Source: Spirogloea muscicola | Lineage: Eukaryota > Streptophyta > Zygnematophyceae > Spirogloeales > Spirogloeaceae | Reading direction: 5' to 3' | Assembly (NCBI GenBank): GCA_009602725.1 | Contig: WELB01000098.1 | Coordinates: forward strand, 406,821-470,820 | Length of the DNA stretch: 64,000 bases | In this document: in pieces, positions 1-56,900 of the stretch | Layout: every line of letters begins with the position of its first letter | Numbering within the stretch: the stretch's first letter is position 1 | Translations under genes and position numbers: made by a program | The notes under the pieces: generated by a model | What the model was told of the DNA's origin: nothing | Databases searched by the model: none | What the model saw: only the letters and a program-made list of their open reading frames with translations

Positions 1-479
1 TTGCAGAAGTGACAAGCGTCTCCTTGGACTCCGATGCAAAGCATCCCCGAAGTTCAGGCACTTGAGGAAAATTTTTCACAGCTTGGGACCCTGCGAAGAG
101 GCGCCCGCACAGCAATAAGGTGTAATTATAGAGCGACATCTAGCTACGCAAGTAAAGACATGCACTTGAAGTCGCTGCAATTTCTGGTTGCTTAGTGTAG
201 CAGCAATGCACCCATACCAGAACGAGCAGTGACATATGAGCATGTTATGTCAATGCTGCTGGCCTCAGTTTTTGTGTTGTATGTCGAGAGTGACCTCAGT
301 TTCTACATTGTATGTTGAGAGTGATTTATATAGAACGGTGCGATACCTGTGGACCTGTCATCTCTTGACTTGATTTCCATGATGGCTTCAGCATCGTAGA
401 ACCATCGGACAAATATCACTGTTGGAAGTGTGAAATAAAATGGAAGTGTATACCGCTCCTTTGAGACCCGGGTCAAGGT
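1..479. other. Downstream flank of the PIG-C gene, no gene recognised
   Basis: No reading frame here resembles a known protein. It lies 3' of the minus-strand PIG-C gene and probably holds its 3' UTR. The only structure seen is a 31-bp unit present twice in tandem with a few mismatches at about 263-324. Confidence 0.5.
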
Positions 480-8240: not shown

Positions 8241-9127
8241 TCTATTGAGTGATGGAGGGTCTGAGTGATTCTGCAGGCGGGAGAGCAGCGCATGGGCTTA
8301 CTGGCCACGGACCCTTTCTGATGTTGTGACTTCTTTGATGGGCTGGCTTTTCACAGCCCTTGGTCCCCTTCGGAGGAAATTGCACCTTCCTTTGATTCTG
8401 ACCCCAGAGTCTCGTTTGGGGCCAGATAGAAAGAGAGCCATTCTTTGTCCCTTTTTCCGTGCTGGCTTTGCACAGCGCTCGCTGAGTCCTCACTTTTATA
8501 CACTACTTGAGAATATCGCAAGTCTAGGATATGCACGACGTGATAACTTCCAGCCCAGGTGGGCATGCCGGCAGCCTATATGTCATTTTTGCGACTTCGT
8601 GTCAGCCTGTTTGCAGCGAGCTCAGGCTCATGCTTTGCACCAGCAAGCTGGTCGAGCCTTAGCTGGTGGCACAAGAGCTTGTCAATTGCCGTCTGGTATT
8701 CAGGCATCAGTCAGCGACCTCTATGTGCTGTCGTGCTTACGGAGCGGGTCAGCTTAGCAGCAGGTGATGTATATCTGTAAACGTGCTTGCATTTGTACTT
8801 GGCCACACAGGCCCTCCTTCACAAAATTCACACTCCATTCTTTTGAGTCAACTTAGCAGCGGGTGATGTACATCTGTCAATGTGCTTGTCTTTTTATTGG
8901 CCACTCATGCCCTCCATCACTTTATACACATTCATTCTCATTTTCTGAAAGAATCACTTTCTTTTCCAAGTGGGAGCGGTGACTGTGATTGGCTATCCCA
9001 AATAAGATGAAGATAAAGATAAGATAAAGAATGAACAAAGTACGAAGGGGCCAGAAAAATGCTAAAGCACGCAGCGACCCGAGTGCCAACTCCAACGGTG
9101 CTCAACAACCAAGGGTGCTCAACAACG
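8241..9127. repeat. Repeat-derived intergenic DNA
   Basis: A mosaic of pieces of the window's dispersed repeats. About 8338-8375 has the GGGCTGGCTTTTCACAGCCC hairpin core with the following CTTGGTCCCCTTCGG. About 8630-8700 is a diverged copy of the box seen at 41570 and 53750. About 8745-8822 and 8848-8925 are two minus-strand copies of repeat R2 in tandem. No intact gene. Confidence 0.6.
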
Positions 9128-9595
9128 AAAGAAGTGGCACTCCCAATGGGGGCAAGGGCTGTGAAAAGCCAGCCCGAAAAAGGATTGACCAAGGTTCGAA
9201 GGGGCCAAATGATGGAGGGGCCTAAAAATCGCTAAGCAGCTCCGAAGGGGCCTGAAGATGCTACGTCAGAACGGGGGAGGATGGACCACTCAGTGGTTAC
9301 GAGTGAGGAGCCTCAAATCCCGACAGACTAGCTGCCGGAAAACTATCCCCCTGACAGTGTTCGGCATCTTCCAGGATGGGGGATAGTTTACCGGCAGCTA
9401 GTCTGTCGGATGTGAGGCTCCTCACTCGTAACTACTAAGTGGTCCATCCTCCCCCGTTCTGCCATAGCCTCTCAAGGCCCCGCAGTCGCTGCTTAGCTCG
9501 TAGTTTGGCCCCTTCGAACCTTGTCAATTCTTTTCGGGCTGGCTTCTCACAGCCCTTGCCCCCATTGAGAGAGCCACTTCTTCTTCCAGGAGGCC
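9128..9595. repeat. Large foldback: two repeat copies in inverted orientation
   Basis: Two arms of roughly 220 bp face each other. The innermost part is the best conserved: AGACTAGCTGCCGG near 9332 on the left and CCGGCAGCTAGTCTGTCGG near 9391 on the right, separated by about 25 nt. Going outwards both arms contain the same boxes: GAGGCTCCTCACTCGTAACT, GGTCCATCCTCCCCCGTTCT, GGCCCCTTCGAACCTTG, and the GGGCTGG...CAGCCCTTGCCCCCATTG core. The right arm matches the direct copy at about 10200-10415. It could be a foldback element or a head-to-head insertion pair. Confidence 0.8.
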
Positions 9596-9648
9596 GGATA
9601 CACGGTGGCATTGGAGAACACGTCGGTCATGCCCATCCTCCAGGTTAC

Positions 9649-9750
9649 TGAGAGGTTACTGAGAGTCCGATTGCTGTCTCAGTCCTTAGCACTCCGGCTC
9701 CTACAGACCTTTTCCATTCCTTTGGGCTGGCCTCTCCCAGCCACCAATGA
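9649..9750 (+). repeat. Dispersed repeat, variant with two hairpin boxes
   Basis: Contains TCTCAGTCCTTAGCACTCCG, CAGACCTTTTCCATTCCTTT and GGGCTGGCCTCTCCCAGCC. An inverted, closely matching copy lies at about 56640-56750, showing that this is a distinct subtype of the window's main repeat family. Confidence 0.65.
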
Positions 9751-9759
9751 TTCTGGCCG

Positions 9760-10115
9760 CGCTTGCTCCATCCTCCAGAGCGCCGACGGACTCCACACGC
9801 GCCGCGTCGACCTGGTAGCGTCCACGCCGGGCGGCGGCGCGCGCTTCATCGCTGATGTGGTCACCACTGATGTGGTCGACCGCTCCAACCCGGGGGTCTC
9901 TGCCTCGGGGGCTGGCCACGCTGCGGCGAAGGCCGCTCGCAGCAAGGCGGCCAAATACGCCGACCACCCGGCTGCAGATGAGTTCGTACCCCTGGCCGTG
10001 GACGTGCACGGGGCTCTCGGATCCCAGTGGCTCGACCTGCTGGCCAGGCTTGCGCGGCGCGGTGAGCCGGCTGACTTCAACGCCGCTGGCTCGTGGGCTC
10101 AGGTATATCGTATGC
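9760..10115 (+). pseudogene. Retroelement endonuclease-like C-terminal fragment
   Basis: One frame carries SADGLHTRRVDLVASTPGGG, then RFIADVVTTDVVD, an Ala/Lys/Arg-rich stretch with AAKAARSKAAKYA, and FVPLAVDVHGALG followed by LARLARRG. Such a pattern (paired Asp segment, basic Ala-rich linker, then F-P-L-V-V/D-x-x-G) is one I associate with the C-terminal restriction-like endonuclease region of some plant and algal non-LTR retroelement proteins. No reverse transcriptase core is nearby, so it would be a truncated remnant, flanked on both sides by dispersed repeats. A GT donor-like site follows at 10100 (CTCAG|GTATAT). Family assignment is tentative. Confidence 0.4.
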
Positions 10116-10194
10116 GATTGTCCGTTCTCCCTTCAGCGGTCCATGGCCCATGGCTTGCTTCTGCATGCTAGCCGTGCACTCGCTGCGGGCTCCG

Positions 10195-10420
10195 GCTTTT
10201 GTCAGGGGGATAGTTTTCCGGCAGCTAATCTGTCGGATTTTGAGGCTCCTCACTCGTAACTACTGAGTGGTCCATCCTCCCGCGTTCTGCCATAGCCTCT
10301 TCAGGCCCCGCAGTCGCTGCTTAGCTCGTAGTTTGGCCCCTTCGAACCTTGTCAAATCTTTTCGGGCTGGCTTCTCACAGCCCTTGCCCCCATTGGGAGA
10401 GCCACTTCTTCTTGTTCCGG
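10195..10420 (+). repeat. Dispersed repeat, direct copy of the foldback arm
   Basis: Matches 9370-9595 box by box, with few differences: GGGGATAGTTTTCCGGCAGC, GAGGCTCCTCACTCGTAACT, GGTCCATCCTCC, GGCCCCTTCGAACCTTGTCAA and GGGCTGGCTTCTCACAGCCC, then GGGAGAGCCACTTCTTCTT. It is the clearest single copy for defining the family. Confidence 0.8.
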
Positions 10421-10656: not shown

Positions 10657-10696
<40 letters not shown>

Positions 10697-11440
10697 CCNA
10701 GCGGCGGCGGCGACGGCGGCGGCGGCCACGGCGGCAGCGGCGGCAGCGGCGGGAACAGCGGCGCCGCCACCGCCTGCGGCTGCGCCTCAAACGAGGTCCG
10801 GCCCCGCCACGCACAAGCCTGGCCTTGTGTTCAGCGCGCCTCATTGGCCGCAGTGGGGCCGCCGTGCTGGGGTTTATACGAGAGCGATTCATGCTCCTCG
10901 GTAGTGAGGTCAAGGGGTTTGGGGAGGCCACCGCAGCATCTGCCGCTGGGGACCTCGTAGGATTGCGACGAGCGGACTAGCTGGCAGTGCTGGCAGTTGG
11001 CGACCATGCCGTCGCAATCCTGGCAATCAGTCTAGTCGCTTCACTCCCCCTAGTCGTGTCATCTTGTGCCGAAGACGCTGTTAGTGTGATACGGAGGCAG
11101 AGGTGTTGCACTAGCTTCTGCTGCGGCTGTTGCTGCTTATTGAGTAACTGGTAGTGGAGAAGGCCCGTACCTTTGGGCAGGGATATGAGGAGACAAAGCT
11201 GTGAATAGAGATGTGGTGGCTTTATCGAGTGGCTTTTGAGTGACATGACTGGCTTATGGCGGATAACTGCCTTCTTGCCATCGCTCGTGAAGTTTTGTCC
11301 TGCGGTTGCAGGCAGGTGCTGGGGACTGCCCACCTATCAGTGTGTTTCCTGTGGTCGTCATCGCTCATCCAGCTCGGCTTGGTAGTTGAGCTTCTCATTG
11401 CTGCTTCCTGCTGCTGTTTGTGCCCTTGCAGGCAGCAGCC
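10421..11440. other. Low-complexity DNA and eS7 upstream region
   Basis: Includes a run of 38 C (10658-10695), an undetermined base at 10699 and GGC-rich DNA to about 10790. No gene is recognised. The last few hundred bases should hold the promoter and 5' UTR of the eS7 gene. Confidence 0.45.
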
Positions 11441-12862
11441 ATGTTCACGGCACGCAGGAAGATCCAGAAAGAAAAGGGCCAGGAGCCAGACGAGTTTGAG
11501 GAGACAGTTGCTCAGGTATGGCAATGTATTTCAATGCAATGTGGGAGTTGCCTTTGCATCGCAGACCATTTGAGAAGAGGGTTCCTGAGTAATGTGGCGG
11601 CGGTCAGTTGTGGGTATGATGAGAAACTGTCGCCCCAGTCCTACATGCGTGCTTGCACGCTCTGAGGATTGACGATAGCACGTCAGTCTGACCCAGCATT
11701 GACCTGAATGTCTTATTCTCCATCTTCTTGTTGCTGTACATGACTTTGTCGGACTAGCCAAGGAATGCAGCATCTAGTGAATTGTGCAGTAGTGTCTAGT
11801 CGTCTCTGCATGGCCTCCAGTCTCATTCGCGGAGCCTTGGGCTTGGGGTCTACAGGCTCTCTTCGACTTGGAGGCCACAAATCAGGAGCTCAAGAGCGAT
11901 CTCAAAGACCTCTACATCAACTCCGCGAAGTAAGTCTGACCTTGATGCAGAAACCTGTATATTTCTGAGCTCTCCTCTTCATTGGACCAGCTGCCTATTA
12001 TGGTGTGCTTGTGCATTGAGCTCAATCAATATGTATGTGTTGACATAGTAAAGAACTGCCAGCCCTTTGCAGTACGTAGCTATCCAATCATTGGCTGCAG
12101 TGCTGACCAGCAATTGGTCGCCATTGCAGGGAGATCGATGTATCCAGCAGCCGGAAAGCTATCATTGTCCAGGTACCCTTCCGGTTGCGGAAGGCATTCC
12201 AGAAAATCCATGCCCGGTTGATTCGCGAGCTCGAGAAGAAGTTCAGCGGCAAGGTGGGCATCTTCATACTGTATACATGCTTGACAAGTTTAGTTTCTGC
12301 TGCTTTGATCATGATTGGTGCTGCTTTCGAGCACATGTGCTGACAGCGCCATGGATACTCTCATCTGAGCAGGATGTTGTCCTGGTCACCACAAGACGTA
12401 TCCTCAAGCCACCCAAGAAGGGTTCTGCTGCCCAGAGGCCTCGCTCACGCACCTTGACCTCTGTCCACGAGGCCATACTGGAAGACCTTGTCTTTCCAAC
12501 GGAGATTGTTGGAAAGAGGTGGCGATTCCGTCTGGATGGATCACGCATCATGCGGGTATGTGATGTGATCGTTTACAGTGTCATGGGAAAGCACCCATAA
12601 TCATTGCTGAAAGCAGCTGCTTCGGCTGGGATCTCGGCAGGGGCTAGTTAGGTTGCTAGCTTGAGGCCTGGCAAAAGCCGAGGCTATGCTGCCAGCTCCT
12701 CATCCAGAACAATGCATGCGTGCATGCCTTGAGCAGGTGTATCTGGACCCAAAAGAGCGGAATAGCACCGAGTACAAGTTAGAGACGTTTGGGGGTGTCT
12801 ACAAGAAGCTCACGGGCAAGGAAGTGACTTTCGAGTTCCCTGTTGCTGAAGCCACCGCGTAG
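11441..12862 (+). CDS. RPS7: Small ribosomal subunit protein eS7
   Basis: Component of the cytosolic 40S ribosomal subunit. Five exons, 11441-11515, 11856-11929, 12130-12253, 12373-12555 and 12737-12862, all bounded by GT and AG, join in phase to 193 residues plus a TAG; the family is normally about 190. The start [20 protein letters not shown] is typical. Further conserved blocks are [77 protein letters not shown] and [18 protein letters not shown]. Each intron is 120-340 nt. The coding sequence looks intact and functional. It lies on the same strand as SMG7 downstream. Confidence 0.98.
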
Positions 12863-13231
12863 AGCGCTAGCATGCGAATAGGTTTTCATCTGCAGCGCAA
12901 AGTTGCTAACAATGAGCATAAGCAAGCTGCAGTGCCATGATTGATATTCATTCGTCCAAGTCTCAAGGGTACTTTTATCATCAGCTCGTTGACCTTTGGC
13001 GCCTCTCTTTGGGCTTCTCACTATCAGCGTGCCTCAGTACTGGTGGTCTGGTCACCTAAAGCTGGCTCCAATAGCAGGACAGGAGACTCCAGGCTTTGCA
13101 CCAGCCTGCTCGAGTGCTTTGCTTTGGGCGCGCATGTTACCGTTCAGTGTCTTGTGCAGATGACAGCAAGCACAAAGCTTCATGCATTATTGTATGTGCC
13201 ATCGCCTTACTTTGTGAGAGCTCTTTGTGAG

Positions 13232-13279
13232 AGCACTTCCTTCCATTCCTTTTTCTGAAAAGGAATGGAAGGAAGTGCT
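13232..13279. repeat. Perfect 22-bp inverted repeat with 4-nt loop
   Basis: AGCACTTCCTTCCATTCCTTTT at 13232-13253 is followed, after TCTG, by its exact complement at 13258-13279. It lies about 370 nt downstream of the eS7 stop, at the edge of a repeat island. Confidence 0.9.
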
Positions 13280-13399
13280 TCCTCCTCCATCGCCCGGCAC
13301 TGCATGTCGATGCCCGCCGACGTAGTCGGGCGGGTAGCTTGGGGCATTCTAGCGTCCCGCAAGCCATCGTTGCATGCTATAGAATGCGGCTATCATTGA

Positions 13400-13645
13400 G
13401 TCTACGGCGCTCCCAGGCACTCGCGATACACCAGCGTGCTGGTCGTGCATTAGCCCAGGCTAATGGCTTCCGTGGTGGTGGGTTGGCGCCTCAGTATAGC
13501 TTGTCAGATATGCATTTGCTCAGTCGGGGATATTAGTGTCCCCCTTAGCCAGCTCATTACCCAGTTAACAGGACATTTGTAAGGCTAGAATTGGTCTCCC
13601 TTTCAATTTCATGCGCACCGCGCGCCTTCTCTCTTCCGGAAAAGG
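13400..13645 (+). repeat. Dispersed repeat, boxes B and A
   Basis: From about 13520 to 13640 this is nearly collinear with 26572-26690: both have CGGGGATAT, GTGTCCCCCTTAGC, AACAGGACATTTGTAAGGCT, then CTCCCTTTCAAT and ATGCGCACCGCGC. The preceding box, CGTGCTGGTCGTGCATTAGC, is a relative of those at 26523, 41571 and 53758. Confidence 0.75.
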
Positions 13646-14253: not shown

Positions 14254-17200
14254 ATGAGCAAGGCCGGGGATCTCAACGGCGGCCCCGCGCCCGCCGGGGC
14301 GCAGTACAAGCAGGTCGGCCGCTGCTCGCTTGTGCCTTCGCATCCCCTCAGAGAGTCTGTGATTCCCTTGGAGCAACTCCCTTTCCTGCAGCCAGCTGCT
14401 CTGCAGCATAGCGCCCTGTTGAGGCTATTCAGGTCTTATTCACTAGATTCGTGTTACTACTTAAGACATAGGTCGGCTTTCTTGTATGTTCGTAGTTATC
14501 ATGAAGTGCAGGATGTCATCACTTTGCTAGCGCACTGGCATGAGTTTCATCAGATGTTGCGCAGATGCTGGAATACGAGAAGCACCTGCGCAACCTTCTC
14601 CAGACCAAGGGCCCGTCAGACCCGAACGTCCGGACGCTGCGCAGCCTGATTCGGGAGAGCTATGAGGCTGTCATACTGGGGGATGCCGGGGCAGCAAAGC
14701 TCCACGATGTGGAGCAGGCGCTCTGGCGCCTCCATTATAAGCAGATTGAGGAGTTCCGGGGGAGGATCCGTAAGCTCACTGCTGCGTCCTCCGGCGAGGG
14801 CGCCCCGTCTCAGCAGGCCACTGCAGCCAAGGCCGTCCTGGCTGGCCAGCGAGACCCCCTGCAGAAGACTGTCGCCCTTTACCGCAGCTTCCTGGCAGAG
14901 ACGTCTGGTTTCTACCATGAGTTGATCAACAAGCTTAAGGCCAGACACAACCTGGGCCCCGACGAGCCCTTTCCCCCGCTGGCCAACGATCTTGAAGCAG
15001 GAGCGGCGGTGCTCAAACCCGGCGAGGATAGTGGCAGCATCCTGCAATGTCGGCTGTCCTGCCACAGGTGCCTCATTTACCTCGGGGATCTTGCGCGGTA
15101 CAAGGAACTCCAGAGCGACAAGGACGTCACTGCACGAAAATGGTCAACGGCCGCAGGGTACTACTTGCAGGCGTCGCATCTGTGGCCAGCAGGCGGGAAC
15201 CCGCACAATCAGGTACAAGGCATTCGAAGCTGACATTATCGAACTGTCTGGACTATTCACCTCTTTGTGCCTTCAGAACATGTTATTGCAGGAGCCCTGA
15301 AAAGCGTATTGCTTATATGGAACATATGATTCAGAAGGCCTTCTGTTTGCAGCAAATTGTTGGTCAAGTCTGGGGAGCATTATTATGTTGTACATATGCT
15401 TATTGTTCTACTTTTGCTTATTGAAATACCAGTGGCCCCTGTTTGATTGAAAACTGTATCCTCCTGACAGCTTGCAGTGCTAGCCACATATGTGAATGAT
15501 GAGCTTCTTGCCGTATACCGCTACTATCGGAGCCTGGCTGTTGATACACCGTTTCTTACTGCTCGGGAGAATCTTGTTTTACTCTTTGAGAAGGTAAGTT
15601 GCCCCCCCTAGTGGAGTTTGAAGCTGCTGAATGGCTGCTTGTAATATTGACGTGATGCTTGATATGACTGGGTGGGTAAGGTGCTGCCTGTCATATTTCA
15701 GGAGGAGCTTGAGGCTGGCTCATCGTTGTTGCTGGTGCAGAATCGCATTCGCTATGCCCAGCTGAGGCAAGCAGGGGATGTGCAGCCGGCAGTACGGGCA
15801 AGAATGGAACACCCGCCAAGCCATCAATCTCCGCAGGACACGCTAGTGCCTCTTGCCAATGGAGCTCTCAAGCTTGCCTTACGCAGTTCATCTCAGACCA
15901 GCGGGAAAGTGGCGCAACTCTCCCCGTCGGAAGCTGTGGAGCTTGGAGAAGCCTTCAAGATCTGCGCTGTGCGACTCAATGGTATCATCTTCAGCAAGAT
16001 TGGGTGAGTGGCAAGGGTTGTCTATCAGCATCTGTGGATATATATTGCATGCGAGTCGTGCACTACCCTCTCTTATTGGGAGTACACGTCTTTTTACAAT
16101 ATTGTTGGCTGGCGCCTTGTTATTCCAAGACAATGTCATGGTCACGCCTGAGCGCTGACATGTTCACTTTGCTGCTTGTAGGCTTGAGACATTCCCAGAT
16201 GCCATGGAAAGCATGCTGCAAGACCTGGATCAGCTACTGTTGTTGCAAGCTCCAGCATTAGAAGCGGCACTGTTTCCTGACATACACGGAGGGGTTGGCA
16301 CTGGACTTGCAGCTGGTCTGCTTCAGGTGAGACATATTGTCCAGTGTTACAGTCACCTGTTGTGGGCGCAGGTGAGCTCACTTGTAGGTGAGCTGTTGAC
16401 AACTGCTGGTTTTCTGATTTGTATACTTCGCATCTTTGACTGACGCAGTTGGTGGCTGTCAACATATTCACGGTTCATAACATTGACTGGACACCAGAGG
16501 GCCAGCAGCCAAGCTATGCAGAAGTCTTGCACAAGTCTGCTCTTGTACAGGTACTCTATTTTTGCATTCACTGCAGTGCCAAGATTGCCTGTTGGTGATT
16601 GCCATATTCCACATCAAGCATGGCTGGTTTGGTAAATGGTTGGCATTACGCTCTCCGTGCAGTTCTTGTCATCGGTGAATATAAGATTAGAGCAGTATTA
16701 AGTTGTACCTCAAGAAAGCTTAGCAGTCCGACAATGGGAAGCAACTGCTTTTCCTTGTTAGCGTAGCCACAATTATGGATGACATAAATCATTGTGCTGC
16801 ATTGATTATCAGCATGCGCTGGGAGCAGCCTACCTATTTTCAGGCCACCTTCTGCAAGGATGTGGGACGGCCAGCATTGAAGCATCAAGCCCCTTCCTTC
16901 CCGCCATCCTCACCTTCTTGGAGTGGCTTGCTTCTTGCCCGAGTATGTTGCAAGTCACCAAAGTGGAGGAGGCCAGCTCTTTGTTCTGGCAGCATTGTTT
17001 TCCCCTGCTGAACAGGCTGATGGAAGTGCAAAATGGGCGCACGAAAACAGTTGCAAGACTGGACTTACAGCCGCTTGAGTTGCCAACTGATGGCTTCGCT
17101 GGGCTGGGCACCTTCAATGACGGGGAGGACGTTGAGCAGGGAGGTGTGGCACTGTGGGAGGACTATGAGCTGAGGGGGTTCACACCGCTGAAGCCAGCAC

Positions 17201-20937: not shown

Positions 20938-23900
20938 CTAGAAGACCCACGAGTTGGATCTGGTGAGAGCTGGCCGGAGCTGCTTCTTCTCCTCCTCGAT
21001 CGAGATCATTGTCAGCTGGGAGGGGTCCTCCAGCAGCATCTTTGCCACCAGGTAGCCTGCGACGGACCACGTCTGATGCCGCCGGGCCTGCTTCCCGACA
21101 TACCTCCCCAGCTTCCCGTCGTAATACTCAGGCCACCCGTCCTTGGAGAGCCTCTTCTCTGCCAGCTCGATGCACCTCTTGGCGATATGCGGACGCCCCA
21201 CCTTAACGCTCGCTGCCGTCACCATCCAAAGCAATACTGCGACAGAGGACCGCGGCCGCCCAGCTCTCAGCAACTTGCACATGTAGCCGCAAGGCTCACA
21301 GCTCATTCATACTTCTACAGAGTCAGAAGGTGTCAGGCCACACTTCTAATCTGACAGCACAGTAGCTGCACCTAGAGTATGTTGTTGAGGCGATCAAGTT
21401 TCCAACTCCGCTGCTCCATGTGAATATTGTGCACAAGCCTACGGTTGTGACTAAGAGGATGGCCGCAACATGTACCTGGCCATGAGCCGCCGTTGTGGTA
21501 GCTCCATCGTGTATTCTTGGGATCGCAGCCGGTCACTATCCTCCACTCGTGGGCCTCCAGCGCCGGGTAAGCAACCTTAATAGGCATTTCCCCAACAATC
21601 TCGTCCCATCTTTCTTCGATCAAATCCATGATGGCATCGGCCTGGTCCGCTGTTGCCAGCGAGCTCAGTACTGCCATGCAGTTGCCAATCGCAAACCATC
21701 TGGGCACAAAGCAAGAATTGGATTTTTTGAAAGTGGTTAATGATGGCACCAACAACGCCAAGGTCAGGTGATCGCAGTCAAAGCACCATCTCAGCCGCCA
21801 TAGTCCAGCGAGCTGTATGCTGGTAACACACCTGAAATCAACTCTGGCAGGGCTGACATTGCCAACGAAGTAGCCGCCCCGCATGGGCATCCAATCAAAC
21901 ACCCAATCCGGAATCGAATCCGGAATAACGTTAAATTTGTTGACTGCGGTGTGGGAGTACTCCTCCGTCTTATATCTATAAATACTATTAAGTTGCTCGT
22001 GGTCAAGCCTGTTGCGCCACGACACTAGGATGTCAGAAGAGACTGCTGCAGAGGATGTGACAAAGAGAAAGGTGTCGCACACAGGAGCCGCAGCTTGTTT
22101 GATCAATTTTCTCAGTCACAATTTTAGTTCATACAGTTTCTACATCTCAAAGACACATCCAAGGAAAGCACAAAAGAAAGCAGCAGCAATCTGGTACCAG
22201 AAGTACGTCCGCATGTGGAAAGAGAGGGCAAAGATGCGCTTGTCAATACGCTCCAGGAGCTCCTTGCCTCCTCGGTCAGGCTTGAGCATGATCCGAGCGC
22301 ATCTAAGGGCCATGTAGAATAACGACTGAATCTCAATTGGATAACCGTAGATTCCCTGCCCAGGCACAAGCATGGGAAGCAAGCTGTCAGGGTGCTAGGC
22401 GATTCTGATTGTTGGTCACTGAGCAACAATGAATCTCAAAATGCCCAACAGCAGGAGGTGCATGGCAGCAAGCATACGCCAGAAGCAGCAAGCAATTCCC
22501 ATTTTCCCGTTCTCCTTGTTACTTGCCCAGTGAGACGAGCAACAACATGTCAGACTTACCATGCGGCGATCAATCATGCAGCAACCATCAGCACACAACA
22601 GAGTAGGGAACGTGTCAAAGCCATCCGCCAAGCACAGCTGCAGAATCAGCTTCATGCCGCGCTGGCATTCGGGCAGCTCTGCAAGAGCTTGATCACCTGG
22701 TGGACCAAAGCACAAGCAAAATCTTGTATTAGTGTGTTGCTAAGTTGGGAGTGGACGCAACTCACGACCCACTAATGGCAAGCTCGACATTTCAAATAGG
22801 ACATGCAGCAGCACATTACACAAGCTGCCCAAAAACAGCGTTGACCTACGAGTAGCACAACCCTCAACGAGCGGCTCAAGAAATGGTCGGATTGAGCAAA
22901 TTGATGCACATGAGGAAGGCCGTCTCCTCCAAGACATGATGCACACATGAGCAACAATACAAGCATGAGCTGGACTTAAGGAAATGCAGCACAGCTCAGG
23001 CATCAGGGGGTTCAGCACCTGTGGACTTTACGTAGGATCTGAGGAGGATGATCCACCAGAAGCCGGAGTCCACAGGGGCAACCCGACCGATGGCACTCTC
23101 TCCAAAATCAGCGATCATCGTGTCTGTGTTGCGCACTGGATCATGCAGCACCTTGAAGCTGGCGGGCATGACGCCCTCGCCCAGCGTGAAGCAGTCCACC
23201 CGCTTCTCCCAGGCTTGCAGCCTGAGGGTCTTGAGCAGGAAATTCTTCACAATCTCTGGCTCTCCATTCATCAAGAAGGCCAGGCCACTAGGAATGAAGT
23301 CCCGCACGAACACCTGGCCAAATTCGATACTCATGATATGAGCATACAGCTATGCACTTCCCAATCCAATGCTTGGACAACCAGGTTGACCCACCAGGTG
23401 TCCACTGAGGCACTGCAGCATTTAGGGGATGTACAGCGAGCTTGCAGCCAGCTAATGTCTGATAAATATTGACAAAGGTGTGTCAACAAGAAGGCAAAGC
23501 CTCAAGATATGACGAGGTGCATGGCCCTCCAAGTGTACATTCCAAATCTTGCAGGGTGCACACTGACCTGGTCATAGTTCAGGAACTCATCTTCCGAGTC
23601 GAGAGCTGCAATAGTCCCAACCGGCTTCCCACGAAAGAACACGAGGGACTTCCGGAGAGCTTCCCAGGCCTCACTGACAAGCGGGTGTGGCACCAAGTGG
23701 CTACCCGACTCGAAGTGGGAGTGGTGTATGTATCCTCGAGGGGTGTTGACGGCCGACGTGGCTGTCGATCGCAACCTGCATGCCAACGACACCAGGTATT
23801 GCAACAAGGACAGATGCTTAGGGCAGAGGCAACCGCCTGTCATACTTGTCAATTCCTGCGTGCAGATTTGTTTCGACATCGGTTAGACTTAAGAAGGAGA

Positions 23901-25826: not shown

Positions 25827-25884
25827 CCACCCTTTCATTTCATGCGCACCGCGCGCGCGCGCCTTCTCCCTCTTGCGCAGGGCT
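25827..25884 (+). repeat. Dispersed repeat box A, interrupted
   Basis: CCCTTTCATTTCATGCGCAC and the following CGCGCG stretch match box A at 13602, 26648 and 53418. The copy is immediately followed by the inverted-repeat element starting at 25885. Confidence 0.7.
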
Positions 25885-26299: not shown

Positions 26300-27140
26300 T
26301 CATCTCTTTTCGGGCTGAGCTGTTCGAAAACCTCACCCCCTTGCGGAGAGCCGATTTTCTTTCGGGCCCCTTCGGACCTTGTCAGTTCTTTCTGGGCTGG
26401 CCTCTCCCAGCCACCGCCCTCCCCCGGAAGCGTCGTTCTTATCTTCGGGCTGGCTTTTCACAGCCCTCGCCCCCTTCGAAAGAGCCACTTTCTTTCTTTT
26501 GGAAGAGCTGCTTCTCTCACACCCATCTGGCCGTGCTCTAGCTGCAGCCTCTGGCTTTCGGCATGCATGCGCTCACTCGGGGATATCTAGTGTCCCCCTT
26601 AGCTAGCTCATTACCCCGTAACAGGACATTTGTAAGGCTAGAATCGGCCTCCCTTTCAATGTTATGCGCACCGCGCACCTTCTCTTGGCAAGGGGACTGC
26701 TTTCCGGCGGGGGCTAGCCTTCCTGACTCGCGGCTGCTGAGTAGAGGTTACTAAGTACTTATCCTCCATGGTACTTGCTTTGTGTTTCAGCGATTTGGCC
26801 TTTTCGGATCTTGTCAATTCGTTTCGGGCTGGCCTTTCACAGCCCTCGCCCTCTCGGAAGAGCTCACTTCTTTACAGCCATTGCCTTTCCACTGAAGCTG
26901 TTTCTCTCCGCCTACGTGCTGACCCGCGGCTGCTGGGCGGGCACTGGTGTATGTAGCAGGACGCGGCCAATGCCTGCACTTGAGCTCGATTCTGCACTCG
27001 AGCGCTCTGGCCCTCGCTGCAGTCACTCGCATTACTGTGTGAGTCTAGCACATGTCCAACGGGCATTTCGGCCCTTTGGCCATTGTCCAGATGTCTGGGC
27101 TGGCTTGCCACAGCCCTCGCTCCCTTTAGCCACTTTCTGA
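26300..27140 (+). repeat. Cluster of dispersed repeat copies
   Basis: At least three hairpin-core copies: about 26360-26415 (GGGCTGGCCTCTCCCAGCC), 26443-26470 (GGGCTGGCTTTTCACAGCCC) and 26825-26850 (GGGCTGGCCTTTCACAGCCC). A fourth, weaker one is near 27098-27120. Box B is at about 26523-26600 and box A at 26640-26690. All are on the plus strand. Confidence 0.75.
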
Positions 27141-28270
27141 GAGATTAAACAGACACGCTGGCCTCTGTCGTTGCATTGAGGCGCCCAGACGCTCAGCCCA
27201 TCTGGGGTGCAGCCCCTCTCACTGCCTGCAGGCCGAGCAGAGCTCAGGCAAACTTGCCGGGCCCAGCGAGCTGGTGGTGCTGCGCTGACTGAGGCCAGCT
27301 GGGCGGCGGGAACGTACTGCGTAAGGCACAACTTGCCAGAGCGCTGGCCTTGCAAGTGCTCGACAGGCTCTGCAACTGTGAGGAAAGGGAGGCTTCACCG
27401 CTCGCTCCTGCTGGCTGTACCACTGGTGCTTCTGCACAGGAGCGCGCTTGCAGGCTCGCCCGTCTTCTAATCTTATTACAAAAGGGAAGGACTTTCCTGT
27501 CTCCGATGAACCGGCTGCAGTATATCGGCTGCTAGGTGCTCAGCCTTGACGAAGGGCTGGCCTTACTCCTGGCAAAGCCTGGTGCTTCTAACTTCGCTGA
27601 TTTCCATGTATGAATTTTGCCATTTGTTGTGAACAGCGCGCTGCTCAGCCCATCCTTTTTTATCAGTATGATATCGTTTATGTTGGGCTACGGGCCCTTT
27701 GTGCTGTTAAGATGGCCAGAGCCCCGAGCATTTATATTATCCTTGTAGCCGAACTCTGGTGGCTCCTAACAAGATCTCAAACAGGTCTGTGCAAGGCTCT
27801 GCTGAAGGCAAAATGTTGCTTCTGTCAGAGATTCTTCTTGACTCCACCTGCAACAGCCTCAACCGATTTGTCTCAGAGTCTTGTGTAGTAGCAGCAAGCC
27901 CTTCGACTTTTCTGTCCTTACACAGTGAGTCCTTGTAGTCTTTCTGAGCACACAGAGAGCGCAATCTGGTGTCACTCATGATTGCGCTACAAGGTCTTGT
28001 CATGTCTGGTACACAGTGTCGGAATTAGTAAGTTCAACCCTGCAAGCACTGGCAATGAGATACATCATTCAAGCCGCGTGTCTGGAGATCTGGTTTGGCA
28101 GGCTCTTCACTCACTCGTCACGTGAGCCTTTCCTTCTCTCTTCCAGCTGTGACCAACTAATGCAGCTCTCTACGAGGTCAAAGGCTATCATGCACCGCCA
28201 AATTTGAATATTCATAGACTTATCCGGCTAGTGTTAATGGGGGCTGGTCCAATCTCTTTATTAAGGTTTC
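27141..28270. other. Intergenic region, no gene recognised
   Basis: Lies downstream of ERG28 (minus) and after the repeat cluster. No frame matches a known family. The part next to 28271 should include the ERG28 3' UTR. Confidence 0.4.
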
Positions 28271-28993: not shown

Positions 28994-29500
28994 GGCCGCT
29001 GCCCCTCGCGGCGCAGAGAGAACAGCGGCTGCTGGCACTGAATGGCGGCTGCGAAGGCCAGCCGAGTGTGTGCAGAGTGGAGTCTGGCGTCTACAGGGTG
29101 CGCAGATGGGGACCCTCTTGCTGTGGACCTTGGTTCAGCCCTTCTGGGCTGGCCAGTCGCAGCCCCCGCCCCGTGTGGAGGAGCTCACTTCTTCTCACTG
29201 TGAAGCTGTATCGGCAAGCGCAAGTCAGGTGAGCTGGAGAGGTGGGCGGCATGACACCTGTAGCTTAAACCCCAAACCCCGGCCCCTCCTCCACATACTG
29301 GCACTGCCCTGCGCGTGGAGCCCGCACCTCCGCCGCCGGCGGCGGCGGCGGCGGTGACGGCGGCGGCGGCTGCGGCGGCGAGCAGATTTGCGGCGCGTCC
29401 GGGGGGGAGGGACGTNCGACGGACATCGAGCGTCGCGTCGTTGCCGAGGTCCGGCGCCGTCGTGGGCTCCGCGGCGGGCTGGCCGCCTTCAGGTCGCGGT
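28994..29500. promoter_or_regulatory. Shared promoter region of ERG28 and CSB
   Basis: Only about 0.5-0.65 kb separates the ERG28 start from CSB coding sequence, so both promoters must lie here. It contains a partial copy of the dispersed repeat (about 29135-29195, GGGCTGGCCAGTCGCAGCCC) and GCC/GGC runs from 29325 to 29395, plus one undetermined base at 29416. Confidence 0.55.
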
Positions 29501-29502
29501 GA

Positions 29503-32500
29503 TGGCCAGCGGCAGAGCCGCCGGCAGGCGGCAGTGCCTCTGACGCCGCGTTTCCATGGCGGTCGCAGGCGCAGGAGGATGCCGCTACCGCCGCCGCCGA
29601 TTGCGGCGGGGGCGATTCCACGGGCCGCTGCTCGCCGCCGGCGTTGTCCGACGGCTCGGAGGGCGCGCCGAGGGCCGAGGGCCAGGGAGCGCCGCACGGC
29701 GGCAACGGCGATGACCGCGGCGACAACTGTGGCGGCGCCGCTGGCGTCGACGCCCGGCGGCGGCTGCTGGCGCGGCGGCTGCGGCACCTGGATCAGGAGA
29801 TTGCGGTCGTGGAGGCTGCCGTGGAGGCTGCCACGGCCGAGCATGACGATGAGGGAGCCGGGGCGGCGGCAGCGGCTGGCGACCTCCACGGCGCGCTGGG
29901 GAAGGAGCGCCTCCGGGAGCTGCGCTCGCGGCGGCGCCTGCTCTCGGAGCGCCTGCGGCTCGCCGACGAGGCCCCCGGCGGCGGCGGCGGCGGCGCAGGA
30001 CGGAGGCCCCGCCAGACCGTGAGCTTTGCCGAGGACGCCCCACCAGCGGCTCTGCAGCCGGCTTTCGCCGAGCCGGCTGTTACGTTTAGCGGCGAGGGAG
30101 CGACGGCTGGCAAGGGTGCCGGCGATGACCACGACGACGACGACGACGATTTCGACCGGGCACTCGATGCGGCGGCCTCTGGGATGGTGGAGACGGTGGG
30201 CCCCCAGTGTGCTACTGGATTGCCCAGTTAGGGTTAGGGTTTTAGGATTTCAAGGTTTACGGTTCACGGTCTAGGTTAGAATCTAGGGTTTGGGTTAGTG
30301 CGCTGTTAAGCTACACAGCTCCTCCTTTAAGAGCATGCGCACACTGATAGTCACAATTGTGATTTCCATGCGGCTCGTCACTCCGCAGGAACGCGACCGG
30401 CTGATCCGGACGGGCGTCCTTACGCCGTTTGCAGGCGTCCAAGGCTTCGAGCGTGGCGTTCAGGGGCCTGGCGACGGGCCGGCTGCAGAGCTTGATCTCG
30501 GCTTCTCGGCCTCTGCTGAGGCAGAGGCCGAGATGAGCGCTGGAGCGGACGCGGCTGCCGATCAGGGAGGAGAGGAGGCCCGGATCGAGCAGTCGGCGGC
30601 CGCCACAGCAGCGGCCATGAAGCGGCTCCGGGAATCGAGGTGGGTGTGGAAGCAGCCCCTCGACTCTGCTGGCGTCATGCGCCTGCCGGTTACATGCGCT
30701 TGTTGACACCGGCTGTTGTGGTAGTTGAGCTTCCCGACCCCAATTGTCACACTCTCTCAGTTTGACCTCAGCTGTATTCCTCAACTTGTGTTGATTGCTA
30801 ATGACTTCTATAGGGTTTGGAACTAAACAGAGCTAACCACTAGGGTGTTGATAATTACGGTCTACTCTTGTATCACTGTCTCCTTCAGGGTCTTCGTTGC
30901 AAGATTCGACTGCAATATTTTACGCTTGAAAATGCAGGACCTTAGATGTATATATAATTACCTTCTCTTGAAGTTCCGCTGATGTTACGAAGGGTGCGGC
31001 TGTGTTGCGGCCAGGCCAAGGTCGACGCTGCTGGAGGGTGCCGACGTGCCGCGGCAGGAGCCGCTGACTCGTGAATTCCGGCGGCTGAGGCGGCCACTCC
31101 GGCCTCGGCAGGCCGGCGGCGAGGATGGCGACAAGGGGGGCGTCAGCCGAGGCCGGGGCAGGCGAGCAGCAGGCCGTGCCCGCCGGCCGCTGCCAGAGGG
31201 GCGGTGGCGGCGGCGGCGGAGGAGGCCTAGGGGTTCGTCGGCATCTGGCAGTGAAGAAGAGGAGGAAGACACGTCAGATGCCGAGCAGCAGCACGGTAAT
31301 GGTGGCCCGTTGAAGAAGCCGCGGCGAGTGAAGCAGGAGACCGATGGTGAGACAGCTTGCTTAATCAAGTGGCATCTGCCCTCAGTTCACAACTACAAGT
31401 GAAAGTGAAAGTGTTTACTTGTAGTTGTGAACTTGAGATTTTGAGATCGCGCCAGCTTTAGATTACGCCAAACCCAAGGATGCGATGGCAGGTCGTGCTC
31501 GTTGCTGACACATTGCTGGGGGATGCGCCACTTCTGCAGAGGACCGGAGCGCTGAGGACTTCCACGAGGAGACGATGACGAGTGACGCAGGAAGTACAGA
31601 CGACAGCAATCAGGAGGATGGGCAGGCACACACCTCTGTCGGGCGGCAGTCGCGGGAGCGCAAGGCAGCCGGCCGCAGGAGCTCCAAGAGCGCGCCGGCT
31701 GATGAGGACGAAGAGGATGTGGTGCTGGAGGGCGGCCTCCGCATACCAGGCAGGCAGTACGGTGCGCTGTTTGACTATCAGCGGACGGGGGTGAAGTGGC
31801 TGTGGGAGCTGCACTGCCAGCGCGCAGGCGGCATCATCGGCGACGAGATGGGCCTCGGGAAGACAGTGCAGCTTGCCACCTTCCTCGGCGCGCTTCACCA
31901 CAGGTGCAGCGCCACCGCCATTAAAGCTCGGAGCTCAAGCTTTAGAGCTCAGTGTTCCCTTGCTTCTGGCAGCATGTCTTACTTAGGCTAATCGTTTTGG
32001 TACTTGCTGACTGTGCTTCGCCAAAGCTGTCAGCTTTTTGTGGCTCCAAAGGTTGTCGAGATGTGGCGTATTGTCTAAAATCTCGTTTAGATGTCTCACT
32101 TGTGGCATGTGGTGACATCCTGAGCCGTGTCTGCCTGTGCGCCCATGACCTGCTCTTCCGCAGCGGCATGTACCAACCGAGCATGGTGGTGTGCCCCGTG
32201 ACACTCCTACGGCAGTGGCGGCGCGAGCTCCGGCTCTGGTACCCGCACTTCCGCGTGAAGCTGCTGCACGAGTCGGCGCTCCCGTCGCACCTGCGAAGCG
32301 GCGGCGGCCAGCCCAAGGGGACCGCCGCCAAGCGCCCACAGCAGCGTCCGCACGACGACAGCGAGGACAGCCGGAGCAGCGGTGATGAGGACGGGGGCAG
32401 CCCGGCGATCAAAGGTGCCGTCCTCAAGGGTGCGAGACGGTGGGACGCGATGATCGACAGCGTGGTGCATTCGCGCAGCGGCATCCTGGTCACGACTTAC

Positions 32501-41094: not shown

Positions 41095-41360
41095 CGAGGA
41101 AGGATGAGGGAAGAAGTGCGCGCCCATAGAGAAGAGGGGCTGGCAAAGCCAGCCCAGAAAAGAATGGGCAATGTCCAAAGCCAAAGATAGAGGAACCGGA
41201 AGAAGGACTACACTACAAAACACTGCACAACACAGAGACGATGCAGAGGGAAGCTCAGTACCCACGAGCGAGCAAGATGAGGGCCCAGATGCACGCCCCC
41301 ATGCAAGTGGCTACGACGAATGGGCGCCCACTATGTATGTGCTCACTCGTAAGTAGTAGA
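41095..41360 (-). repeat. Dispersed repeat, minus-strand copy
   Basis: GAAGAGGGGCTGGCAAAGCC then AGAATGGGCAATGTCCAAAG is the complement of 53925-53985, and the ATGCAGAGGGAAGCTCAGTA box recurs at about 54311. The orientation is opposite to the neighbouring copies at 41700 and 42530. Confidence 0.75.
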
Positions 41361-41447: not shown

Positions 41448-42860
41448 CTGGCCTCCCTGTATACCATGCGCAGCGCGCCCAAACTCTCACAAACCCCTGT
41501 CACAAATCCCTCTGGCCCACAACGTCCGTCGCCGGGCTGGTGGTTGTTCCATGGCCCACGCCTTGCATCTGCGTGCTGGCCGTGCTCTAGCTGCAGCCTC
41601 TGGCTCTCTTCATGGGGATGCTTTCCGGCGGCCAGTCTTCTGACTTGCTGCTACCAACCAGAGCTTAATAAGTGATCCTACATGGTCCTTGCTTACTTAT
41701 GTCTTACAGCGCTTTTCGGTCCCTTTGAACCTTGTCAATTCTTTCGGGCTGGCTTTTCATAGCCCTCGGCCCCTTCAGTGAGCCAATTTCTTTCTTCCTT
41801 CCAGGGGGGCGATGAAAGAAGGAAACAAGTAGCTCTTCCAACGTAAGGCAATCGCTATGAGAGGCCAGCCCAAAGGACTAGACCAAAGTAGATACAAGGG
41901 CTGTGAGAGAAGTCGGCTCTGAAATGGGACGCGGGCTTTGAGAGGCATGCTTAGAGGCTAGCTGCTTCCTCTAACAGAAGGAAGAGTAGAAGCTCCTGCA
42001 AGGGGGAGCGATGGATGTGAACTGCCAGCACAAGAGGTAGGACAATGTCTGATGGTGCCGGTGAGGAGAAACAATGCAGCTGCGCAAAGAGTCTCAAAGA
42101 GTACGCTTTGTGGCTTCGGTCTCCCGGTCCTTTTTGGAGGGACTTCGTTCGTACAGTTTGGGCTGGCCTCTCACAGGCAATGCCTTGACTGAAAGAGCAA
42201 CTCCTTACGCAAGGGGCCACGACAAAGGATTGCTTGACAATCGTCATAACAATCAAATAATCAATATGAACGACAACCTACAATCAGCAAGCTATCCATA
42301 TCACTCACAATCAGTGTAACGATGCCATGCCGCCGCCCAGCCGCGGCCGGAGGGGCACGTCAACCCGTCCGCAAGCGCAGGCGCCGACAGCGCCGACGTG
42401 GCACCGGCGGGTCCCTGCCACGCTGGCCAGGCACGTGGGATACCTCCTCCCCCTTTCCCCGCCAACTTCCTTCCCCGCTAATAAGAACGTGTAAATGAGT
42501 GATGATTTTTGGGCGCCTTCCCGGCTATGCGGACCTTGTCCATTCTTTTTGGGCTGGCATTTCCCAGCCACCTTCTCAAATTGGGCGAGCTCCTCGTTGC
42601 GGCCCTTTGAAATTTGGTTATTCTTTCTGGGCTGGCTTTTCACAGCCCCCGCCCCATTCGGAAGAGTTGGCCTAGTACCCTGCTTTTGCGCCATCCGGCC
42701 CCTCTTTTCCTTTCTTTCTATGGCCGAGCAATTTCTTCCAGACCTTGCACATTCCTTTGGGCCGGCCTCTCGCAGCCATTGGGAGAGCCACTTCTTCTCA
42801 CAGCCATCGCCGTCGATTGAAGGAGCTACTTCATTCGAAAGAGCAACTTTTCTTCTCGTT
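41448..42860 (+). repeat. Cluster of dispersed repeat copies
   Basis: Box A near 41450-41490, box B at about 41571-41690 (GTGCTGGCCGTGCTCTAGCT, then CAGCCTCTGGCTCT), and hairpin cores near 41745-41765, 42160-42180, 42549-42570 and 42628-42650 (GGGCTGGCTTTTCACAGCCC). A minus-strand fragment with GAGAGGCCAGCCCAAAGGAC is at about 41860-41885. The cluster ends just before TAF9 exon 1 and so may reach into its promoter. Confidence 0.75.
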
Positions 42861-53404: not shown

Positions 53405-54420
53405 CTCTGGCTTGAATTGGCCTCCCTTTTCATTTCATGCGCCCCGCGCGCCTTTCTCTCTCCTCACTCTTCTCCTCCTCTTATTTTTTTGCAAATTCTC
53501 GTGCACTACTTGTTGCCTGTACAATGTGTTGGCTTGTGAGTTGGCCTCCCTTCCACTTCATGCAGACCGCGCGCCTTCTCTCTTTGGGAGAGCCACTTTC
53601 CTTCTGGCTCCGCTGATATGAGCAAGAGAGAGTGCTTCGTAGCTACTTTGTTCCTTTTCCTGCTTGTTTTTTTAGTAAGAACACTCTGCATGCACCAGGC
53701 AGGCTTTTACGCTCGCTTGGCCGTCTCGCTGCAGAGGTCTATGGCCCGCGCGCTGCACCTGCGTGCAGGCAGAGCCCTCGCTGCAGCCTCTGGCTCTGGC
53801 CAGGGGACCCGCTTCCAGGAACCCAGTCTCTCCGACCTGAGGCTGCTTAGCAGAGGTTACTGAGTGCTTCGTAGCTGCTTCGTTTCTTTTCTGTGCTTAG
53901 AATGCTCCTCTTTCTTTGGCTTTGAACATTGTCCATTCTTTTTTGGGCTGGCTTTGCCAGCCCCTCTTCTCTATGGGCGCGCACTTCTCCCTTTTACAGC
54001 CGCCTAGGTTTTGGATCAGCAGCCGCATTCTCTTTCTGCACTAGCTTTGCCCGAACTGTGTATGGGCTCAAATTGGCCTCCCTATCACTTCATGCTCATC
54101 GCGCGCCTTCTCTCTCTTCGAGAAACAGCTCTTCGAGATTGACAAGCAGTGGCTGTGAGAAGAAGTGGCTCTCCCAATGGGGGCAAGGGCTGTGAGAGGC
54201 CAGCCCAAAGAAGAAAAGCGCTCGCCCTGAGAGAAGGGGGGGCTAGCAAAGCCAGCCCAAAATAGAATGGACAATGTCCAAATCCAAAGAATAAAGATAA
54301 AACTACAATGATGCAGAGGGATGCTCAGTAACCACGAGTGAGCAACAAAGGAATGGACAGCCCAAAGGAATGGACAAGGTCTGAAAGGGCCGGATGGCGC
54401 TAATAGCAGGAGACTAGTCT
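53405..54420. repeat. Cluster of dispersed repeat copies in both orientations
   Basis: Box A occurs three times (about 53412, 53538 and 54072, each GGCCTCCCT...TCATGC followed by CGCGCGCCTT). Box B is at 53750-53865 and the core at 53925-53985 (GGGCTGGCTTTGCCAGCCCC). From about 54165 to 54400 come minus-strand copies, including GAGGCCAGCCCAAAGAAGAA and GCAAAGCCAGCCCAAAATAG. This is the fullest example of the boxes in order A-B-core. Confidence 0.8.
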
Positions 54421-55734: not shown

Positions 55735-56240
55735 CTAGCCTGTTGCTAAGTGCCAGGAGGATGATAGGAATATACCGCGGTGAGAATCGGAATACTGATC
55801 CTCACGGAGATGCTGAGGATGGGCTGCATCGTTTTCAGACAACAAGTTCCTGACAAATGATTTTGGGCTGCCGAGGACATCTTTCACCAACTGCTTGGTC
55901 AGCACCAGCCACTTTGTGTCCATGACTGCAGCTTCATACACGAATACTGTGAAGCACATGCTGTGCTGCACATCATGCATACAAACGGTGGTGGTGGTGA
56001 TGATGTACATTCCTTTGGGCTGGCCTCTCACAGCCAATGCCTTACACTGGTAGAGCTGTTTCTCGATGGCCTCTAGGAGAGGCGCCGGATAAGTGGCTAC
56101 AAGCCAGGTATAGAGCATGTGACCTCACTCTGGTGATTGGTGGTGCCAAAGTGAGCTAGTGGAGTGGCTGTTGAAGCCACCAAGGAGGACAGAACTAGCC
56201 GGCGCAGCTTCATTGTCAGCTGCAGCAGATGATGCCAAGG
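55735..56240 (-). pseudogene. Decayed partial copy of the SBP56-like gene
   Basis: GATCCTCACGGAGATGCTGA then GGATGGGCTGC at 55796-55828 matches the exon at about 62765-62797 (GATCCTCACGGAGCTGCTCA then GGATGGGCTGC), with diverged flanks on both sides. Further on, GTGGCTGTTGAAGCCACCAA at about 56165 resembles GTGGCTGGTGAAGCCGCCAG at 63096. The two matches are in the same order and orientation as in the full gene. Between them sits a dispersed repeat core (about 56010-56060), and no continuous frame survives. I infer a duplicated and broken relative. Confidence 0.55.
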
Positions 56241-56635: not shown

Positions 56636-56900
56636 AGCAAGCGCGGCCAGATTAACTGGTGGCTGGGAGAGGCCAGCCCAAAAGATTGGACAAGGTCTGA
56701 AGGAGTCGGAGTGCTAAGGACTGAGACAGCAGTAAGCGCACTCTCAGTAACCTCAGTACTGCTGCGACAGGGTGCCGGCCTCCACATTTCCAGGACCCTT
56801 CCCTCGCTTGCTGTGGCAGAAGACTATCAACGACAAAAGAAGGAACAAGCGCGGCCAGATTAAGTGGTGGCTGGGAGAGAGTCGGATGGCAAAGCCAAAG
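56636..56900 (-). repeat. Dispersed repeat, minus-strand copy with partial duplicate
   Basis: About 56640-56750 is the complement of 9649-9775, including CTGGGAGAGGCCAGCCCAAA and GTGCTAAGGACTGAGACAGC. Its edge, CAAGCGCGGCCAGATTAA followed by TGGTGGCTGGGAGAG, appears again at about 56847-56882, so the end has been duplicated. Confidence 0.75.

Follow-up and report, generated by a model that had tools for sequence, protein, structure and literature searches.

What kind of element gives rise to the hairpin-bearing repeats that recur throughout a 64,000-nucleotide stretch of the Spirogloea muscicola genome (assembly GCA_009602725.1, contig WELB01000098.1, forward-strand positions 406,821 to 470,820; hereafter the window, with coordinates counted from its first base)? 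The original prediction, made from the letters alone, had described a GGGCTGG...CAGCCC core, often accompanied by two further boxes (A and B), as a high-copy non-autonomous element, possibly related to short interspersed elements (SINEs). Our analysis indicates that the repeats are almost certainly the 3' ends of a group of long interspersed elements (LINEs; retrotransposons without long terminal repeats, non-LTR) that carry a restriction-like endonuclease. The pattern has an ordinary cause, namely thousands of dead LINE 3' ends.

Within the window, the expression GGGCTGG-(3..12)-CAGCC found 19 matches, whereas 30 first-order Markov sequences averaged 0.43 and never gave more than 3; as two palindromes were read on both strands, these correspond to 17 distinct hairpins. 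Sixteen of the 17 positions listed for the core match the expression and the remaining one, near 41750, is a decayed copy recognized by alignment (41548-41794). An additional hairpin 3' end, missing from that list, was detected by the expression at 27097..27145 (+). Besides, GGCCCCTTCGAACCTTGTC occurs eight times in the window with up to three mismatches and is followed by GGGCTGG in six of these cases. Across the 153 Mb and 471 contigs searched, the 20-mer GGGCTGGCYTNTCACAGCCC has 3,444 exact matches (1752 + 1692) vs none for its reversed control, so the family extends beyond this locus, and its description as high-copy and dispersed holds. The copies are clustered nonetheless: eight exact 20-mers in 64 kb amount to ∼5.5 times the genome mean (about one per 44 kb), and the 9.9 kb on either side of the window contain none. 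A scan of viral contigs gave 65 pattern matches and no relative.

When copies from many contigs were aligned, one end proved sharp and the other ragged. With the hairpin read as GGGCTGG...CAGCCC, the sharp end, whose terminus is GGGAGTGCCACTTCT, is the 3' end and the ragged one the 5' end, and the 3'-anchored copies range from 36 to 890 bases in length (36 search anchors and 53 others). The anchored loci are the best 40 scored of 2,960 candidates, and the sample is therefore weighted toward copies resembling those of the window. A fixed 3' end, here the hairpin followed by GCCACTTCT, in combination with ragged 5' ends is what one expects of a LINE truncated from its 5' side. The copies do have an end in common, then, and almost all of them are non-autonomous, as had been proposed, through truncation to LINE 3' ends. 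The 3' untranslated region measures ∼100-170 bases and closes with the hairpin and the same terminal sequence.

The copies have a reading frame in common, which runs directly up to the stop codon. A genome search with the C-terminal protein returned, among the best 150 scored of 21,934 candidates, matches of 64-92% identity besides the query, most of them in open frames and some with stops; neither flank of the window gave a match. The earlier statement that no open frame is conserved thus applies to the 3' untranslated core, yet fails just upstream of it. Two loci, L084 and L085, hold open frames of 1,181 and 1,158 amino acids that are 88% alike and continue, on the 5' side, beyond the sequence that was read, their stop-to-stop frames being reported as 1,338 and 1,558 amino acids. 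In L061, a near-complete copy of the subfamily that we refer to as a-type, amino acids 147-1181 were matched in four pieces with frame shifts. From the N-terminus onward, a weak C2H2 finger is followed by a reverse transcriptase, and this in turn by a C-C-H-C motif and an endonuclease-like region. The reverse transcriptase matches Pfam RVT_1 (E 2.7e-16), and the PDB sequences found at E<0.001 were three R2 proteins only (3e-7 to 1e-6 with a single sequence, 6e-9 to 9e-9 with a profile); judged by these matches, it is of the non-LTR type.

The restriction-like endonuclease of LINEs is reported to have its catalytic lysine at a shifted position, as part of a KX2KY motif of the second helix, an arrangement shared only with Prp8 (PMC5678591). 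This motif is present once in the whole L084 frame (KELKY, at 1069), where it is accompanied by RVDL-X..-D, and recurs as KEIKY in L085 and as KAAKY in the window; among 18 fragments covering the position, the first lysine is kept in 16 and the tyrosine in nine. Based on the KX2KY and RVDL..D motifs, the enzyme would belong to the restriction-like class of LINE endonucleases. An apurinic/apyrimidinic endonuclease (APE) was matched neither in the L084 frame, by Pfam, nor in the genome, by PF14529, a negative that covers neither PF03372 nor whatever precedes the frames.

How such copies enter the genome can be read most directly from a nested insertion. An a-type copy at 9377..9581 (+; expression and alignments), which begins with TGGGGGATAG, has its hairpin at 9536, and terminates in GCCACTTCT, lies inside an older LINE reading frame and is flanked by a 10-bp duplication, TCTTCCAGGA (9367-9376 and 9582-9591). 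The left piece of the interrupted frame (9357..9376, +; ending in TTCGGCATCTTCCAGGA) contains the left duplication as its last ten bases, as aligned to L061, and the right piece (9582..9643, +; 95% identical to L061) starts with the right one. Rejoined, the split frame reads TTCGGCATCTTCCAGGA|GGCCGG, which is uninterrupted in L061. Directly to the left, at 9127..9356 (-), lies another a-type LINE copy (93.9% identical to L061), with its 3' end at 9127 and truncated ∼226-230 bases from that end.

The search for target site duplications, suggested along with the original prediction, was extended to the 76 copies with enough flank, in which the longest string common to both flanks was compared with mismatched pairs of flanks. 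Strings of at least seven bases were shared in 27/76 copies (3.5 expected) and strings of at least eight in 16/76 (1.2 expected). When the position was limited, duplications were present in 19/76 copies (25%) as opposed to 161/5,700 mismatched pairs (2.8%). These chance matches are mostly pyrimidine runs (134/161); strings that do not start with three pyrimidines were found in eight of the 76 copies vs 27 of the 5,700 pairs. Short duplications, including the TCTTCCAGGA pair, are hence above chance. Pyrimidines also mark the insertion sites: at least six pyrimidines in the upstream 8-mer were seen at 44/85 junctions and at 14% of random positions. Seven of the 85 junctions directly follow the tail of an older copy (0.84 expected), which is 7/44 of the pyrimidine-rich junctions if all seven belong there, compared with 4.1% of pyrimidine-rich random positions. 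A strong tail-to-tail targeting was discarded, since an upstream hairpin at the 5' junction was found in only 6/85 cases vs 2.5 expected. Given that this hairpin-based test is weak and the tail-motif test clearer, we claim only a tendency to tail targeting.

Truncation lengths form two small clusters, the first (∼48-54 bases) with its 5' ends shortly before the hairpin and the second (220-226 bases) with them at GGGGGATAG, which suggests that reverse transcription paused at these points. Copies of 48-54 bases account for 7/76, and four of these seven share a flank string of at least seven bases. With the hairpin located at the extreme 3' end, these short copies argue that the start of reverse transcription needs this end alone.

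The hairpin stem is nearly invariant across subfamilies, both in sets selected by the stem and in sets selected separately by upstream sequence. Over 131 sites located through the sequence that precedes them, stems averaged 5.9 pairs vs 3.9 in Markov sequences.

Certain observations weigh against the reading of the repeats as ends of restriction-like LINEs with a functional hairpin. The C2H2-like stretch (amino acids 146-166) stays under the Pfam cut-off (E 0.13). The cysteines and histidine of the C-C-H-C motif are in the right order, but spaced CX1CX12HX3C instead of the CX2-3CX7-8HX4C published for this knuckle (PMC5678591). In L061, which is the longest of the a-type copies read, the KX2KY motif is replaced by KAAKH. 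The C-terminal profile produced no PDB match at E<=10 and no Pfam match at E<=1, and the endonuclease assignment therefore rests on motifs. A position-limited duplication is absent from 57/76 copies, for which age, short length or deletion would be the explanation, and the hairpin-based junction test mentioned above gave its 6/85 with four in the opposite orientation. Finally, the hairpin shows no compensatory changes, so that, with a nearly invariant stem, its pairing is unproven by covariation, and folding was more stable than that of shuffles in one of five ends (z -3.1; the others -0.94 to 0.01).

The proposed SINE-like origin implies a short element transcribed by RNA polymerase III (Pol III), with a fixed 5' end of its own and perhaps a 3' end shared with a LINE. 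The B-box-like GGTTCGAAGGG that had prompted this proposal does exist, yet it sits opposite the element's sense strand, and an element read from that strand would have its ragged end on the 3' side. Moreover, GGTTCGAAGGG departs at its last positions from the Pol III B-box consensus. ARAGORN found no transfer RNA (tRNA) in the window or the 40 fetched loci, nor did Rfam in the window, and the ragged 5' ends run on into the LINE frame of the longer copies. More in favor of such an element are a mild length excess at ∼220-236 bases (11 of the 36 anchor copies, with four of the 53 others at 221-226) and the genome-wide counts of 29-mers with up to three mismatches: the count across GGGGGATAG (1,391) falls below those of its neighbors, of which one lies about 25 bases upstream of the stop codon (1,907) and one further upstream, in coding sequence (1,809; the stop codon itself, 1,821). 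However, the counts on either side of the supposed start are near equal (1,809 upstream vs 1,907 downstream, where the upstream count may include sister lineages), and if GGGGGATAG were the fixed starting point of most copies, a number far below 1,809 would be expected upstream. With ragged 5' ends, an antisense box and no tRNA, we rejected the SINE as very improbable.

The same length excess might reflect a distinct minor LINE derivative of ∼220 bases rather than a truncation hot spot, and several copies of this length indeed have duplications flush at the G-run. Yet the anchors had been chosen with a query of that length, making the excess partly a matter of selection, and the cluster at 48-54 bases (7/76) suggests a simpler cause, i.e. 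that reverse transcription pauses where the RNA is structured or rich in G. We thus consider a separate derivative unlikely; in our opinion, the excess at GGGGGATAG marks a pause site. A DNA-based repeat (miniature inverted-repeat transposable element, Helitron or satellite) with an incidental hairpin could account for the position of the latter close to one end and for the dense clusters of copies. Against this, the aligned copies lack terminal inverted repeats, one of their ends is ragged, duplications are present, and the repeat is continuous with a reverse transcriptase frame. This last point rules out a DNA transposon, and we assign the whole class of DNA-based explanations a negligible probability. 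Also set aside were the intact PF00078 reverse transcriptases of the genome, which belong to unrelated Ty3-type LTR elements, as the C-terminal protein is unmatched in those 20 loci. Of note, ten loci with a Ty3-type LTR retrotransposon reverse transcriptase (L064-L073) have an identical longest frame of 1,003 amino acids in the stretch fetched, suggesting recent Ty3-type copies.

Boxes A and B, for their part, are not free modules. Box B (CGTGCTGGCCGTGCTCTAGC..AGCCTCTGGCTCT) consists of the codons of RAGRALAAASGS close to the end of the LINE protein; a copy that includes it together with a decayed hairpin was aligned at 41548..41794 (+). Box A, with up to four errors, has 19 occurrences in 251,612 fetched bases, six of them inside the window, and continues into a CTT-type terminus in nearly all readable copies. 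One of these (13596..13640, +) lies ∼60 bases past the end of a C-terminal coding remnant (13162..13533, +) that is 36% identical to L084 and stems from a more diverged LINE lineage. Judging from this position, box A probably terminates that lineage on its 3' side; the remaining box A copies are preceded by different upstream sequence. These copies are located, all on the plus strand, at 25827..25870 (by alignment and the box A search) and, by the latter, at 26651..26690, 53423..53465, 53549..53590, and 54081..54120.

In the window, four or more kinds of 3' end can be told apart (a, b, c, and box A). Around the nested insertion, the a-type is represented by a decayed fragment that retains the hairpin only (8340..8375, +; regular expression and alignments) and by a longer LINE copy at 9768..10410 (+; 88.8% to L061), comprising the C-terminal coding part, the 3' untranslated region and the fixed 3' end. 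From sequence reading, the stop codon of the latter is TGA at 10264-10266 and its hairpin is at 10364; an open stretch (9770..10126, +) encodes the endonuclease core with RVDL..D and KAAKY by its motifs, the frame shifting near 10125. This copy abuts the tail of a c-type 3' end, the third subfamily (GGGCTGGCCTCTCCCAGCC ... GGCCGCGCTTGCT; 9724..9767, +; expression and alignment). Beside it, a C run with N at its end (∼10659-10699) is likely a weak point of the assembly.

Further a-type 3' ends of ∼50, ∼80 and ∼55 bases were found at 26444..26496 (+) and 26794..26873 (+), both by expression and alignment, and at 54160..54215 (-; alignment), the last with a b-type fragment directly behind it (54211..54291, -; alignment). 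The b-type is otherwise present as a 3' end at 41111..41210 (-; 94% to L084) and as a LINE copy with the coding end and the whole 3' untranslated region (53693..54008, +; 96% to L084 over 53714-54008). A c-type-like 3' end occupies 26365..26413 (+; expression and alignments) and a c-type one 56661..56703 (-; alignment and expression). Hairpin 3' ends also lie at 29146..29195 (+) and 56017..56060 (+), both identified by the expression, and two adjoining ones at 42530..42662 (+; expression and alignments). As to the neighborhood of the repeats, the window holds coding stretches for an EST1 domain (14544-15233, +), a plant-type neutral invertase of glycoside hydrolase family 100 (21372-22115, -) and an SNF2-related protein (31946-32677, +), as well as a snoU31b-like C/D box small nucleolar RNA at 11612-11694 (+; Rfam, 40 bits vs a gathering score of 37). 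The invertase, the snoU31b-like RNA and the genes as a whole point to the plant lineage, probably to an alga.

With respect to known relatives, the elements resemble LINEs with a restriction-like endonuclease (R2, R4, CRE, NeSL/Utopia, HERO) in their single long frame, reverse transcriptase and KX2KY motif and, less clearly, in the zinc finger and C-C-H-C motif, and R2 proteins are the closest solved sequences. They differ from typical members in being dispersed, in their very many short copies and in the C-C-H-C spacing. The restriction-like clades CRE, R2, R4, NeSL, and HERO are mostly target-specific, with Utopia, within NeSL, targeting U2 genes, whereas HERO comprises many non-specific families and some that are specific for microsatellites (PMC4640811). 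Unlike R2, which inserts into 28S ribosomal RNA (rRNA) genes, the present copies are dispersed over many contigs, and Rfam detected no rRNA in the window; nor did it, at gathering thresholds, detect U2 or other small nuclear RNA at the window copies, the search for this Utopia-type target being confined to the window. As HERO holds many non-specific families, HERO-like behavior comes closest, in a comparison of clades by description rather than by tree.

The zebrafish elements ZfL2-1 and ZfL2-2 belong to the L2 clade and use an APE endonuclease. They may be likened to the present group for their 3' hairpin end, a likeness of working and not of descent, but the endonuclease here appears to be restriction-like and recognition of the hairpin is putative. 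For such stringent-type LINEs, ZfL2-1 and ZfL2-2 among them, binding of the protein to a stem-loop in the 3' tail has been described (PMC4176376). A SINE derived from tRNA would likewise be short, high in copy number and flanked by target duplications, yet the present copies are without a fixed 5' end, a tRNA-like head, and Pol III boxes on the sense strand. Dualen (RandI) of Chlamydomonas is a green-algal LINE that also has a restriction-like endonuclease. In contrast to Dualen, the frames read here contain no APE, the DNA upstream of them not having been read. Dualen is reported from relatives of Chlamydomonas (PMC8226300) and is said to encode an APE endonuclease as well (PMC4640811). We found no description of restriction-like LINEs in algae in the open-access papers searched, and the available part of PMC5348765 describes none; Repbase lay outside this comparison, and we make no claim to a first description of the family.

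As far as sequence can tell, the end pattern, duplications, coding capacity, nesting, and pyrimidine-rich junctions are properties of the copies themselves, and the fixed 3' end, ragged 5' end and duplications agree with insertion by target-primed reverse transcription. In such a scheme, the element's protein would bind the hairpin end of its own RNA and nick a pyrimidine-rich site, where reverse transcription might be primed with the CUUCU end of the RNA pairing to the nicked strand. Copying would mostly stop early, giving the ragged 5' ends, and closure would leave a duplication of ∼7-10 bases. Now and then, the target would be an older copy or its tail, and islands such as those of the window could build up in this way. 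More speculatively, several LINE lineages with proteins that diverge by at least one third may keep the same hairpin and CTTCT terminus as a common ticket, letting the enzyme of one lineage move the RNAs of others, while pairing of the terminus with pyrimidine tracts replaced the targeting of a single gene; we hold this to be possible, if on balance improbable.

In summary, the present analysis traces a set of puzzling boxes back to one ordinary origin. It also sets right a SINE call, which might otherwise find its way into a repeat library. A dispersed, high-copy group of restriction-like LINEs with shared ends is less usual in the plant lineage; heavily truncated, with a preference for pyrimidine-rich junctions and a common 3' hairpin, it would be a useful case for studying the loss of target specificity and the choice of RNA ends. 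If the idea of a shared end is true, a site-specific element would have turned into a dispersed one that lands also on its own tails.

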